Assembly (NCBI GenBank): GCA_001574975.1
Contig: KQ965851.1
Location: 79,489-143,488 of the forward strand
Length of the DNA stretch: 64,000 nt
Reading direction: 5' to 3'
Source of the DNA: Gonapodya prolifera JEL478
Taxonomy: Eukaryota > Monoblepharomycota > Monoblepharidomycetes > Monoblepharidales > Gonapodyaceae
Notes under the pieces: generated by a model
Database searches by the model: none
Told to the model about the DNA's origin: nothing
Seen by the model: the letters and a program-made list of their open reading frames with translations, nothing else
Shown here: one piece after another, positions 1,591-53,284 of the stretch
Position numbering within the stretch: the stretch's first letter is position 1
Layout of the letters: each line of letters opens with the position of its first letter
Made by a program: the position numbers and the translations under genes

Positions 1591-3926
1591 GTGTTGTGCT
1601 CTGGCTGGGATTGTGCGGATAGTGTCTGTACCACAACAGCTTACTCATTTACAAACCACGGACATGGCCATGGCCACCGCCGCGATCGCCAGCATCCCAT
1701 TCAACCCACACCAATCCACATTCGAGCTGTCCCATCCCGGCGCTCATCCTCACCGGGCGGATGGCGTTCACGGAGGCCGACGATCGTGAGTTCGTGGTGT
1801 TGCGATCGCTGGCTCAAACACCGAATTCTCATCGCTCATGGGACTGATCGTGAAAGGGCGAGGTCTCAGCCCACAGTCGTGTCCGCGGACGAGGTGAAGC
1901 GGGTCGTGCAAAGAGCAGTCGGGTCCAAGGGTGGAGAAGAGAAAGCCACGGTGGCTGCGAACGTCAGTGACTGAGTTGGATCACACAGTGTTCTCTTGGC
2001 GAGAATAACACCGATCGATGACTCGTTGTGCTCCTCCTCCACCCTCGATCGTTCCTTCCACTCCGGCCCACCAATGTCCGATCCACAACACCCAGCGCGC
2101 CGCGCTCCACGTCGCCTCGAAAGCCCGCGTATCCGCATGGGGCAACACAGTCTCCGGTCTTCGACGTCAGAAGCTGCAAGCTCGTGCTGAGCGGCTCAAA
2201 GCAGAGGAGGAAGAGCGACAAAAGATGGACAAGGAGTATGCCAAGGAGCGCGAGGAGAAGAGGGCAAGGGACGTCGAGAGGGCAAGGGCCATCATGTATG
2301 ATGCCAAGGATGAGGTCAAGACGTTTCACTCAAAGGTCCTGCTGTACCAGGTGATGAAGGTGGGTCGCCATGAAATCGCTCAGTGCAAAGATACCGGATT
2401 CAAACGACCGTGTTTGCAACAGGAGCGGGACCATCAACTAACTCTAAAGAAAAAGCAGCACGACATTTCAAATCTGTTGAACTTCAAATCCGTTAATGAA
2501 GAAGAACAAACACTCGCACACGCATTGCTGCAAGAGCAGGAAACAGTTGAAACAAAGAAAGCGCAACGTCTGCAGTTGGCGCGAGACCAGGAAAAGCAGA
2601 TATCGGAGAAGGAGGCTAAGAAGGATATGGCGAAGCGGGTGAGTGCGTCGTACCGAGTGGCACGTTCTTTGAACATTTTAGTGAAGGGAACCCCGTGCAG
2701 GCCCACCTCGAAGAAGGAGCCAACATCCGAGCTCTTGACGCGATCTACCAGCAGCAACAGCGCATGGCGACCGCTCAGAGACGAGCGCACGAGCTCGCGA
2801 TCCACAACGATCTAGTCCGGATGCTGCAGGACCACAAACAAAATCAAGAGGAGGAAACAAGAAAAGAGCTCGAAGAAAATTCCAAGGTCGCAGCGTGGTC
2901 CGAACGTAAGGAAGCGTTCGATAAGGCGAAAAAGGAGGCAGAGAAGCACTGGATGCTGTAAGTTAGGGGTTACATGATCGGTACTTGTGGATCAATTTGA
3001 CGTCAACCGCGCCTTGCACAGGGAAAAATTCCGTGTTGCCGAAGCGCTAGGTCAGTCGCGCGCGCAAGAGGATGCCCAAGTAAACGCCCAGTACGAGTTG
3101 GAAGTAGAGAACTCTCTCAAGGCCAAGGACGAGAAGGAGAGAAAGCTGGAAGAGGTAAAGAGGGCGCAGAAAGAGCAGCTTGCAAGAGAGAAGCGGGCCT
3201 ACTATGAGCACCACGTACGTTTCCCGAGACTACTTCAGTGCCCGATTGGATCATTCCCCATCTCATGTGGCCGCCTCTACTAGCTCACAGTACAAAAGGA
3301 ACAGCAAGAAGCCACGAAAGAGCACAACAGACAAGAGTTCGAGTTGAACCAGAAACTCTGGGTTCAAGCTACAGCGCAAGAACTGCGGCGACGGCAGACG
3401 CAGGTGGAGAACGGAAAGAAAATGCTCGAATTCCACCGATCACAGGTGGTGAGTAGTACGCCGCTCCATAATAGCGCAAAAATTTACCATGGTTAACCCG
3501 TTCTACTTTAATCAGACGGTGAAAAGAGCCCACGAAACTGCCACCGCAGAAGCTTCCGCTCACTTCGACAAGCAAACTCTCCAATCGCACATATCGGACG
3601 AGAAACGATTCCTTTCGTACTGCGAGGGCTTGGCGCACGAACCTTGGGCACGAGATAACACCCGTCTCCAGAAATACGTCAGCGATACCGTCGCGAGACG
3701 TACGGCGGAGCTAGCTAGCAAGGAAAAACGCGACTTCCGGTCACCGTTTGACGACGAGCGATCGCATAAAAACACGGGGAGGAGGTTGGGATTTACAACA
3801 TTTGCAAATCATTCCGCTGAGGCTGAATCACATGCACCGGTGAGGGAGGAGAGAATTATCTCGTCAGCGGCATCAACAACGGCCCGCATCATCGGGAGAG
3901 CGAAGCCTTCTGTTTCAAGTATCTAA
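1591..3926 (+). CDS. CFAP210: CFAP210 (CCDC173)-like axonemal microtubule inner protein
   Basis: An almost wholly coiled-coil protein rich in E, K, R and Q. CFAP210 binds inside the doublet microtubules of motile flagella. Recognition rests on AWGNTVSGLRRQKLQAR, then a charged helix, then FHSKVLLYQVMK running across a 63-base intron into ERDHQLTLKKKQ. This matches the order and spacing I know for the animal protein (NTIAGQRQKKL ... FHSALLLTEVLKERE). Exon ends seen: intron 2360-2422, 2639-2700, 2958-3021, 3215-3283 and 3449-3515, all GT..AG. The stop is at 3924-3926. The 5' end is unresolved: exon 1 probably ends at a GTGAGT donor near 1787 and joins to PTVVSADEVKRVV, but I see no ATG in that frame, so the given start is only the limit of the open frame. 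The gene implies a flagellated life stage. Confidence 0.8.
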
Positions 3927-49044: not shown

Positions 49045-50276
49045 TTACACAGCATTATGCGCCACCCTGACAACCTCATCCACATCCTCCACAGCCCTCA
49101 CAAGCCTCCCCAACTCCTCCCACGCCTGCTCATTTTCGCCCAAGTCTACGGTCTCGAGGGGTACGTACGCGGCGGGGTCGAGTGAGATGATGTCGTAGGA
49201 GAGGGATTCGAGGGCGAGGGAGAGGGACCGGATGGTGGGGGGTGGGGTTGTGAGTTCCAGGATGGGGAGGGAGGGGGAGGAGGAGGGGGACTCGGGGTCG
49301 GGGGGAACTTCGTCGATGTCTTCGACGCCGAGGTCGATGCATGTGTCTGTCATGGTCTAACGATACGCGACGAGTCAAGGGTGAGCACGGGCACGCGAGA
49401 GGAAAGGGGGAGGGATGGAAGGAAAGGAAAATGGGAAGAGGTACTCACGGATATGTCATGCCCCGACGTGCCGGTGGAGACTCGGATGACTCCTGGACAC
49501 GTGAAATGTGGAGGGTATGGGTTAGTACTCGACATGCCATCTCCTCCCGTCAGGCGGCGCTTAGGCATCGGTGCTCGCTGCTCTGTATCATTCTTCCGCT
49601 TCGCTGGGTACTCGCCTCCGGCGGACTCTTCGGTCAGCTCCTAGCGGCGCTTAGGCCTCGGGCTCGCTACGCTTGCGTCTCGCAACTCCGGCATGCTCGC
49701 TGTGCTCGCAGACTTCCGTTGCTCGAACTCCCCCCCCGCCCCCCCCCCCGCACCTTTCTTCTCAAACTGAAACGCCACCGCCGCCAACGACCCCCCCGCA
49801 TTCGTAACCGCATTCCGCACATGTAGCAGCGCCCTCTTCTTATTATCCGTCAGTGCATCCACCATGAGCGCGACTCCACCTGGTCCCAAGACCTCGTAAG
49901 TTACCAACTCCAAATCGAGTTTATCTCCACCCTCTGCCTTCTTGAGCGCTGCCTCGACTGATGATTTGGGAATCGCCTCAGCTTTGGCTTTTTTGAGCAA
50001 CCCGGCGAGTTCCATGTTGGTCGCGGGGTCTTTACCACCGCGCCGGGCGGAAGAGGTGATTTGTGTGGATATCTTGCCGACAAGGCGCCCTCTGAGCAAG
50101 TCGTTTTCGCCCTTCTTGTGCCGGATCTTGGACCATTTGTTGTGGCCCGCGAGGGTGGGAGTGGTGGTGTGGAATGCGCGGTGGGTTGAGTGTGCGTGCC
50201 CGTGGAGGAGGGAGGGAATGGGAGTTGGAGTGGGGAGAGGAGCCCGCGCGACGGCACGGAGGCACGCGGCGAACAT
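49045..50276 (-). CDS. TACO1: TACO1/YebC family mitochondrial translational activator
   Basis: Exon 1 (50276-49754) begins MFAACLRAVARAPLPT with an arginine-rich, serine/threonine-rich presequence, then AGHNKWSKIRHKKGENDLLR, the YebC signature. KISTQITSSARRGGKDPATN, IPKSSVEAALKKAEGG, YEVLGPGGVALMVDALTDNK and AVAFQFEKKG follow. A 261-base intron (49493-49753) leads to VIRVSTGTSGHDIS (49492-49449). A further intron leads to TDTCIDLGVEDIDEVPPD, then SLALESLSYDIISLDPAAYV and a terminal DLGENEQAWEELGRL with VVRVAHNAV. All three YebC domains are present. In mammals TACO1 is needed for translation of COX1. The large intron holds GC-rich palindromic DNA shared with the neighbouring gene. Confidence 0.9.
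49545..49736 (-). repeat. GC-rich palindromic element, copy A, in TACO1 intron
   Basis: Read on the minus strand (sense to TACO1) it contains GAGCCCGAGGCCTAAGCGCC, then GAGTCCGCCGGAGGCGAGTA, then GCGAAGCGGAA, then a second GATGCCTAAGCGCCGCC. The same motifs in the same order occur at 51079-51189 on the plus strand. Short self-complementary cores such as CCGCCGGAGGCG and repeated GCGAGC words are typical of it. It fills most of the 261-base intron, starting close to the splice donor. Confidence 0.7.
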
Positions 50277-50403
50277 GACGCAGTCCGCTTTTTTCTCGGT
50301 GCGATTTCCACGTTCGTCCCACGTCTGAGCCCGCGTGCCGATTTCACGCGTGTTGTTGGAAGAAAGAAGATGCTGTGGTCGGATCGATCGGGGTGTGAGG
50401 CAT

Positions 50404-50421
50404 NNNNNNNNNNNNNNNNNN
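50404..50421. other. Assembly gap (18 N)
   Basis: A run of 18 undetermined bases lies in the short space between the divergent TACO1 and axonemal genes. Further undetermined bases occur at 50528 and 50585-50587, inside the 5' exons or first intron of the plus-strand gene. Confidence 0.99.
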
Positions 50422-50448
50422 AACACCGAATCAGCAGCACACGCAGCG

Positions 50449-53284
50449 ATGCCGCGACGGAGTGCGATGCGCGATGCGGGCGTGGGAGACGTCGACACGC
50501 GGGCGGACGCCGTGATGGCGAGGAGAGNGCTGCTGTACGGGAACGCGAGAGAAGGTGCGTGACTGTCTTACTCTGCGCCGGGGTNNNGTCTCAGAGATGT
50601 TCTGCACACTACGACCGCAGCGCACCCACGCCGTGACGCACCCCTCGCACGCAACAACATCGAATGGGTCGCCGAGCAACTCCCGCCGTGGATCTCGACG
50701 TCGCGGGCAACGTTCGCGGGCCAGCCGGCGTCCGCGCACGAGACGAGACGCAAGGCTGCGGAACGTGAGTGCTCCTCTCTTTGTCCGGTGGGGGGATGGG
50801 GTTGGGGGGTGGAGATGCCTGTGTTGACAACTTTTATTTCGAACGCATGCAACTCGTTCGTACTCTACCACCCGCGCCAAGTTGCGACGTGGTTCAAACA
50901 GTCTCACGCAGCACCACAGGGTACTGGAGAGGGGTTCAAGGGCGAAAGGAGCGTCACAAAGGCAGATTTCACCATAAAGTCGCTCAGTGAGCCCACGTTG
51001 CCCATCAAGAGGGTGGCTGTGAGTAACTCGACGGTGGTAAGGGCGAGGGGGGCGAGACGCGACCAACGGAGGCCTGTGAAGGCCGGAGGAGGGAGCCCGA
51101 GGACTAAGCGCGAGAGCGCTGATCGAGGAGTCCGCCGGAGGCGACTACACCGCGGAGCGGAATACTCCTTTCCTCGCGGAGCGAACCCGAAGCCTTAGCA
51201 CGACGTCACGTCACCTCGTATCTCACCTTCCCACCAACTCCCTCCCCACCCTCCACCCCCAGCTCCACCCCCCCATCCCCACCCACGACTCCCCCTCTCC
51301 AACAACCTCATACACCGCCTCCTTCCCCTCACACGCCGCCCACCTCGTCACCCCGCACGCGGCACGTACGGGCGTGAAAGGGTATGAGGATCCGAGGACG
51401 GTTCATGTGGCGTTTGGTGGGGGTGGGGGTGATGAGGAGCAAGGGGGGCATGGTGCGAATGGGGGGACGGGGGAGGGAACGAGGTGGATGAGTGTGACCA
51501 GGGGTGCGTTTCGTGGCGGTGCAGGAGCAGGCGGAGATGTTGCAGGAGCAGGAAGTACACCGATCGGACCATCTGGTTGCCTGTCATCTCACGACACCAC
51601 CACCTCGAATTCCCACGCCCCACACTCGGACCGCCTCACCCGCACCGACTTCCACTCGTGGCCCGACCTGCCGGCGCCCACGCGTCCCAACGAGCGTTGG
51701 CGGACTGTTACGGGGGATGTTTTTGTGGATCCTTCCGAGGTCGGGTCGAAGGTGCAGGTGCAGATTCACGGGAGGGTGAAGGGAGGCGGAGTGGGAGTGG
51801 AGGGAAAGGAGGACGGGGGCGTGCCATTGCCGTGGAAGCAAGTCCAGGAAGCGGATCCGGGGAAGATCAAGAGGTACGATCGCAGCGTGCATTTTTTGGT
51901 GAGTGAGGTGTGCTCTTTGGATCGTCGGGTCTTCGGGTTGTGCACATACTGCCCTACCGTGTTTGATGAAACCCTCCCTACTGACACCTGCTCAAACGCT
52001 TGCCGGGACACTACACCACACGGACGTCGCACAGATGGGTTCGACCACGACCACCACCCTCCCCACATCCTCATACACATCTTCTTTCCCCTCTCACACC
52101 TCCTCTTCCCCTTCCCTGTCCACCTCCCCGTCCCCATCCCGCCACTCCCACTCCCGCAACCCTCCACACCCCCTCCTCACCGACGACCCTTCCCTCCTCC
52201 ACCCATCCGACCGCACAACGTCCACATTCCGCATGTCCTACCCCGCTCACAATGTCGGAGGGATATCGTCCGAGGCCAGGATGGAGGCGGATAGGTCGAG
52301 GGAGTTTAATAAGAGGACGGCGGTGCCGGGGTTGGGTGGGGAGGTGGATGGGGAGGGGGACGGGGTGGGAGGAAAGGATGGAGGTGGGGGGTGGGGGAGG
52401 AGCGTCACCAAGGAGGATTTTGCGGGACCGGGAGGAGGAACAGGAGCAGGAGCAGGAGCGGGAGCGGGGATGGTAGGTGCAGGCGCCACCCATGCCCGGC
52501 CCATCCCCGGAGCGAGGAAAAGCACGGTCAGTTTCGGGACCGAGCCGCCCTCGTGGCGGTCTGAGACGCACGCGCAGTTCCCCGCACCCGTTATGCGTTC
52601 CCACTCCGGGGCCGACACCGACGCCTACGCCTCCAGCGCGCACGACACGCACCTACTCCTCGCCGACCCACCACTGGACCAAACCGCGTCGCACTTCACG
52701 CTTGGCACGAGCACTGCCACGAGCGCTGCGGGTGATGGTCTTGCTCTCGAAAGCACGACTAGGACGGCAATGGCGCGGGCCCAGGACGCGAGCGAGCGCG
52801 AACGGGTACTGGAGAGACGACCCGCGGGCGTGCCGAGTTCGAACGAGGTCAGACAGGCAGGCGCGGTTGCGTTTGGGGTGTCTTTGGGGAACACTATGCC
52901 CCTTTACGCCGGCGCGGGCGGGTCGACCTCGACATCACAGTCGACATCACAGTCGGGACTTCCGCTTGCAGGACCGGCATGGACTCCCTGGGCGACGCAA
53001 TCTCAGCTCGCGTACACGTCACCGGGCACCTCCACTGCCCACTATCGTCCTACGAGGCCCGACGACATTGAGTTTTCGCGCACCAAGCGGACCGTGCAAC
53101 GCGAGGACGGTGGCGTGCCCGGGTGGACGACGAATAGGGCGGCGTATGTGAGGCCGGAGTGGATGGTTGGTGAGTGTTCCGTGTGTGTGGGGGAGTGACC
53201 TGTTGTGGGTGAATGTTGTTCTAATGGTGTGCATGTGTTGTTGCAGATCGGAGCGTGTACGCTGGGCCGGGCAAAGGGACGTAG
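50449..53284 (+). CDS. Probable axonemal (SAXO/PPP1R32-like) repeat protein
   Basis: The likely start is MPRRSAMRDAGVGDVDTRAD, then a GTGCGT intron. Later exons carry NNIEWVAEQLPPWISTSRAT, a stretch with VATWFKQSHAAPQG, and repeated short motifs: SVTKADF (near 50953), SVTRGAF (near 51491), SVTKEDF (near 52402); SYTASFPSH (near 51307) and SYTSSFPSH (near 52070); also FGTEPPSWRSETHAQF and SHFTLGTSTA. The last exon is DRSVYAGPGKGT, stop at 53282-53284. Multiple short aromatic-charged motifs in a Ser/Gly/Pro-rich chain fit flagellar microtubule inner or surface proteins such as PPP1R32/SAXO types, and the window has another flagellar gene. The assignment is by pattern only. The 5' part is uncertain because of N bases. 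A GA-codon microsatellite near 52439-52470 encodes alternating Gly-Ala. Confidence 0.5.
51079..51189 (+). repeat. GC-rich palindromic element, copy B, in axonemal-gene intron
   Basis: It contains GAGCCCGAGGACTAAGCGCG, then GAGTCCGCCGGAGGCGACTA, then GCGGAGCGGAA, then GAAGCCTTAGCACG, matching copy A motif by motif. It starts shortly after a GTGAGT donor (near 51018) and ends before a CCCCCAG acceptor near 51261. It is therefore intronic and in the sense direction of its host gene, like copy A. Confidence 0.7.

Follow-up and report, generated by a model that had tools for sequence, protein, structure and literature searches.

The two related elements noticed in the window, by which we mean the whole 64,000-nt stretch of Gonapodya prolifera JEL478 DNA analyzed here, are members of an extensive short-repeat family whose copies lie almost wholly within spliceosomal introns of protein-coding genes, in the sense orientation. 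We are confident both of the anatomy of this family and of the conclusion that the repeats reside in pre-existing introns, do not generate introns and are not introners. The best reading of the data, which we hold with moderate confidence, is that of a non-autonomous, strand-restricted nuclear repeat that inserts close behind the 5' splice site of introns already present near promoters.

The initial annotation had described two related palindromic elements, each within an intron and in sense to its host gene. Shared arms, shared words and blind gene models confirmed the relationship, the intronic position and the orientation of both copies, here called A and B. The features concerned are the following:

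49493..49753, - strand: host intron of copy A in TACO1, 261 nt, with donor GTGCGG at 49753 and acceptor CAG at 49493 (blind gene model; TACO1 protein continuity)
49557..49752, - strand: copy A of the repeat element with its G-rich 5' edge (nhmmer profile match at 49557-49731, E=1.3e-39)
49612..49626, - strand: core word GTCCGCCGGAGGCGA in copy A (sequence match)
49521..49527, - strand: branch-point sequence TACTAAC, within the unique 3' portion of intron A (perfect match in sequence)
49045..50276, - strand: TACO1 gene, host of copy A, coding part with 3 predicted exons (gene model, Pfam PF01709, PDB homologues)
51019..51262, + strand: intron hosting copy B, 244 nt (blind gene model)
51060..51201, + strand: repeat element copy B (nhmmer E=6.1e-28; genome-wide relatives at 77-89%)
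51130..51144, + strand: core word GTCCGCCGGAGGCGA in copy B (sequence match)
50467..51898, + strand: divergent gene hosting copy B, first four predicted exons (gene model whose 3' extent is unreliable; no Pfam family)

The 261-nt intron proposed for copy A was recovered exactly by the blind gene finder, and the TACO1 protein is continuous across its junction, between FEKK and GVI, as judged by Pfam PF01709 and the PDB TACO1/YebC homologues 4f3q, 9olf and 5ekz. The support for splicing comes from protein continuity. For copy B, the blind model replaced the proposed intron 51079-51189 with 51019-51262. The elements begin ~22 nt (A) and ~41 nt (B) past the donor, in agreement with the described start close to a GT donor. 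Copy A matches the 174-letter consensus at 86.5%. Two arm pairs link A and B in inverse orientation, one of 45 nt with 87% identity and one of 22 nt with 91%. Within the 64 kb, the 15-mer GTCCGCCGGAGGCGA and the 19-mer GAGCCCGAGGNCTAAGCGC have exactly two occurrences each, one per copy; by chance, 0.16 and 0.09 matches, respectively, would be expected within 2-3 mismatches. Elsewhere in the window, 1761-3283 encodes a coiled-coil protein without a Pfam hit that by eye resembles proteins of flagellar type.

We searched the genome (47.6 Mb, 207 contigs) for the words of the family. The exact core 15-mer GTCCGCCGGAGGCGA was present in 277 copies (147 forward, 130 reverse) with none for the reversed control, a 28-letter module gave 257 matches at up to 3 mismatches with none for the controls, and a 17-letter head gave 106 matches at up to 2 mismatches vs 9 for the control. 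The matches listed define at least 245 distinct positions spread over 100 contigs, and identity between copies is roughly 70-95%. Outside the centers of the fetched loci, only 2 of 18 clusters carried the exact 15-mer, those two being the window copies. Degenerate copies far outnumber exact ones, so the true total is probably above a thousand by extrapolation from these sequence matches. The sampled loci are those most similar to A and B, a choice that biases copy quality but should not bias genomic context.

Elements span 86-391 nt (5th to 95th percentile). Read in the sense direction, a full copy leads from the 5' splice site through a short unique or G-rich stretch, the head GTCGAGCAACGGAGGCCTGCGAGCACAGCGAGCAGGCCGGAGTTGCGAGACGCGAGCGCAGCGAG and at least one core module into a unique 3' part of the intron, and the order within the core module is CCCGAGGCCTAAGCGC..GCGCTGACCGAGG..GTCCGCCGGAGGCGA..CCGCGAAGCGG..CCTCGCGGAGCG. 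The modules consist of mini-hairpins in series, each with a GNA loop and a closing C-G pair: the density of C(GNA)G is 14.4 per kb for the sense type and 0.09 per kb for the mirror type, with a background of 0.1-0.2 per kb in element-free introns, exons and intergenic DNA. The repeated units CGCGAAGCG, CGCCGGAGGCG and TCGCGGAGCGA belong to the class of GNA-loop DNA mini-hairpins, which, like d(GCGAAGC), are exceptionally stable as single-stranded DNA (PMC4686876). This is a known physical property of short DNA, but a nuclear repeat family built from the motif was not found in the literature searched. The term palindromic is apt for the small hairpins, with C(GNA)G enriched ~100-fold on the sense strand. 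Minimum-energy folding of whole elements, as RNA or as DNA, showed no excess over dinucleotide shuffles. When the hairpin stems were checked for compensatory changes, they mostly exhibited one-sided decay, and the only stem with two-sided changes was AAGCGC...GCGCT, at up to ~7% for some pairs. The ordinary folding energies and one-sided stem decay indicate that the present copies are without visible selection for hairpins. With regard to a SINE build, in which a tRNA- or 5S-derived head with polymerase III boxes is joined to a 3' tail, the head GGTTCGAGCAACGG bears a faint likeness to a B box, and no common 3' tail was seen among the copies.

Several local variants were observed among the loci. 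A second head type near GCGAGGTCTGGAGTGCGAAGCACGGAAGACCGAGC replaces GTCGAGCAACGGAGGCC in L006, L017, L019, L020, L028, L036 and L038 and possibly marks a subfamily. The homologous introns L005:1859-2132 and L009:1026-1249 differ in one local module (~65 nt), with a ~27-nt G-run nearby in L005. At L040:1481-1700, the flank GAAACATGTCCGCACCTGCATTCC... occurs a second time next to an N, possibly an assembly artefact.

Gene context was assigned with a small gene finder that was self-trained on the fetched loci and run with the elements masked as N, giving models from DNA alone. Of 71 clusters, 59 lay in introns in sense and 2 in antisense, a further 7 lay in predicted exons (sense), and 3 were intergenic; random placement would put 17.5% in sense introns (p ~3e-33). 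Among genic calls, the ratio of sense to antisense was 66:2 (66/68). Together with the 277 core words, these counts bear out the expectation, set down in advance, of tens to hundreds of copies that are mostly intronic and sense-biased; the opposite pattern, copies mainly between genes and in both orientations, was not seen. Nine of the 12 calls outside sense introns have a good sense-strand donor within ~52 nt, and in L026 and L055 this donor is distant or weaker. The apparently intergenic L034:1505-1664 is clearly without a nearby donor and lies between two similar ~60-nt stretches (GTTGTACCC.AACCACAACT...GCGACACAAAA). Among clusters that are either sense-intronic or intergenic, the 3 of 62 that are intergenic are too few for random insertion (p ~1e-19).

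Host introns have a median length of 342 nt vs 104 nt for the rest. Elements typically start 8-45 nt past the donor, but this distance is variable, mostly ~7 to >50 nt. In many copies the 5' end is conserved and G-rich at its edge; the 3' ends vary, and the remaining 3' stretch of the host intron, commonly 50-130 nt, is unrelated from one intron to another. Neighboring pairs of copies less than 3 kb apart, counted free of any gene model, were divergent in 14 cases, tandem in 3 and convergent in 1 (p=0.001), and this divergent excess places copies near gene starts, as would be expected if they lay downstream of shared promoters. Consistently, 40 of 42 measurable copies lie within 1 kb of a predicted start codon, although the extent of this preference for gene starts is uncertain, as the start lies outside the fetched stretch for the other copies. 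The elements carry 1.47 CTRAY branch-point-like words each in the sense direction vs 0.18 in antisense. The median best acceptor score is 3.5 in antisense vs 1.8 in sense, and only 9% of elements in antisense score as high as the lower quartile for real acceptors. The host genes have no evident common function.

The claim that the elements generate introns was examined in second genomic copies of the host genes (homeologous or allelic, 74-99% exon identity), in which intron length was taken as the spacing of the exon matches. The intron was kept in the second copy at all 18 positions and none was intronless, but at 8 of the 18 it was shorter by about the length of the element, which we score as element absent by length. 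Subtracting the element from the host intron predicts these 8 lengths with r=0.99 and errors of at most 23 nt. The introns in which the element is absent by length are:

Copy B of the window: 244 nt vs ~86 nt on C72
L037: 245 vs ~57 nt
L021: 572 vs 276 nt
L017, first intron: 276 vs 197 nt (weak copy, given less weight)
L025: 299 vs ~125 nt
L038: 279 vs ~128 nt
L051: 261 vs ~156 nt
L029, first intron: 264 vs ~225 nt (weak copy, given less weight)

The element is retained in the other 10 of 18 second copies:

Copy A of the window: element common to both copies
L005/L009 (twice) and L019/L020 (twice): common to both, by sequence
L008, L018 and L042: common to both, with core words inside the second copy
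L016: common to both, with element matches inside
L044: common to both, by length only

Host introns thus exist with and without the element, which indicates that the element occupies introns that were already there. The data do not support intron generation, and the splice sites are not at the fixed positions that had been anticipated, since distances to both splice sites vary and the 3' intron parts are unique. The companion claim of mobility fared better: presence or absence between second copies fits it, although insertion and precise loss are indistinguishable. Taken with the dispersal over at least 245 places and the ~70-95% identity, it fits a spreading family, with the direction of each change not settled. 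Module arrays also change locally, as in one homologous pair in which the second element of L009 has one module more than its L005 partner. No target-site duplication was found, the longest word shared by the flanks averaging 4.15 vs 4.23 for mismatched flanks in a comparison limited by eroded 3' ends, and no terminal inverted repeats were noticed by eye in the consensus. Rfam returned no match at gathering score for the window and 8 loci, and a tRNA scan of the window found none.

Introners, or introner-like elements, have been described in Micromonas, Aureococcus and Dothideomycetes (PMC9860276, PMC4457414), and the present family resembles them in its many similar intron copies in unrelated genes, in their sense orientation and in their enrichment in genes. 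Hundreds of similar intronic copies lying in sense close to a donor are what would be expected if each insertion made a new spliceosomal intron and brought its splice sites with it. The family nevertheless fails the defining test of intron gain, as an intron is retained in every one of the 18 second copies, including 8 that are element-free by length; moreover, the 3' intron parts are unique, distances to both splice sites vary, and the similarity at both intron ends used to recognize introners (PMC9860276) breaks down at the 3' end. We regard true introner-like elements as extremely unlikely. A host regulatory element near gene starts, such as an intronic enhancer of expression or splicing, would account for the promoter-proximal sense placement and for retention in 10 of 18 second copies, but it is hard to reconcile with absence by length in the other 8, with whole modules that differ between partners, with one-sided stem decay and with host genes of no evident common function, and we judge it very unlikely.

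Two further explanations concern how copies came to be where they are, and each seems to us improbable, if less so than the preceding two. If elements inserted at random, selection might spare only those intronic copies that are in sense and lie past the 5' splice site but upstream of the branch point: elements in sense carry CTRAY words and have no good acceptors, antisense acceptors are somewhat better (3.5 vs 1.8), and the tolerable space in short introns lies just past the donor. However, many intergenic copies would then be expected, and antisense acceptors are so weak that too few would be eliminated to give 66:2. The intergenic scarcity is unexplained by random insertion and selection, which argues that transcription or intron sequence must guide insertion or copying. 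Alternatively, the RNA of an element-bearing intron may be reverse-transcribed and copied into other introns, with the 5' G-run representing non-templated C at the cDNA end. Strict sense orientation and intron location agree with such RNA-templated spread, as do the conserved 5' end with its G-rich edge in many copies, the variable 3' ends and the lack of a target-site duplication; against it, G-runs also occur at 3' edges (the second intron of L005, and L022) and are missing from other copies, and reverse splicing of whole introns is ruled out by their unique 3' parts.

Under the reading that we prefer, a strand-restricted repeat invading pre-existing promoter-proximal introns, we tentatively propose that spread proceeds by way of an exposed strand. 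The family would spread at the DNA level, entering breaks or gaps within the transcribed zone next to promoters, in which an R-loop or similar structure may expose the non-template strand. Only the sense orientation would put stable GNA hairpins on that strand, and a sense copy would bring CTRAY words and no strong acceptor, such that splicing would tolerate the insertion. Stem-loop synthesis and templated insertion of the polymerase-theta type are known enzymology (PMC11292364) and could be one way of copying such units. Copying into the exposed non-template strand is favored by the presence of the hairpins on that strand only, by copies that follow the direction of transcription and by the G-rich 5' edge. 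Weighing against the proposal are the ordinary folding energies and the mostly one-sided stem decay, and neither a source copy nor an enzyme was found. It is conceivable, though we consider it doubtful, that the family represents a new kind of mobile repeat that targets transcription-exposed non-template DNA and in which GNA hairpins restrict copying to sense, promoter-proximal introns. In the literature searched, which omits most subscription papers, we found no description of a hairpin family that is nuclear, sense-only and restricted to introns.

MITEs and other non-autonomous DNA transposons are short, non-coding and dispersed in many copies, with presence or absence between related loci. 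The present family shares these traits but differs in having no detected target-site duplication, no terminal inverted repeats that we noticed and a far stronger restriction to one compartment and one strand. The short palindromic repeats of Volvox mtDNA and ptDNA are found in either orientation, and those present in the nucleus are regarded as inert (PMC2670323). Like these and the double-hairpin elements of Allomyces mtDNA, the family is made up of short selfish repeats that form hairpins, build up in introns and spacers and nest within each other, and its small hairpins have recurrent stable loops (14.4 per kb). Unlike these organelle residents, it is nuclear, lying in spliceosomal introns of nuclear-type protein-coding genes, and confined to the sense strand (66:2).

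Sense-only intron repeats suggest introners, and the present family gives the same picture without intron gain; a survey relying on intron similarity alone could therefore miscount such families. The strand rule, the position at gene starts and the hairpin build together make testable the idea that transcription-exposed DNA steers the site and direction of a repeat.

One further observation concerns the interval between the two window copies. The tract 49746-51024 matches the second copy at C72:197299-198564 at 95% (90% at the left edge), intergenic DNA and introns included, compared with 70-77% outside. The tract is bounded by the donors of introns A and B, as though gene conversion had stopped at both element sites.
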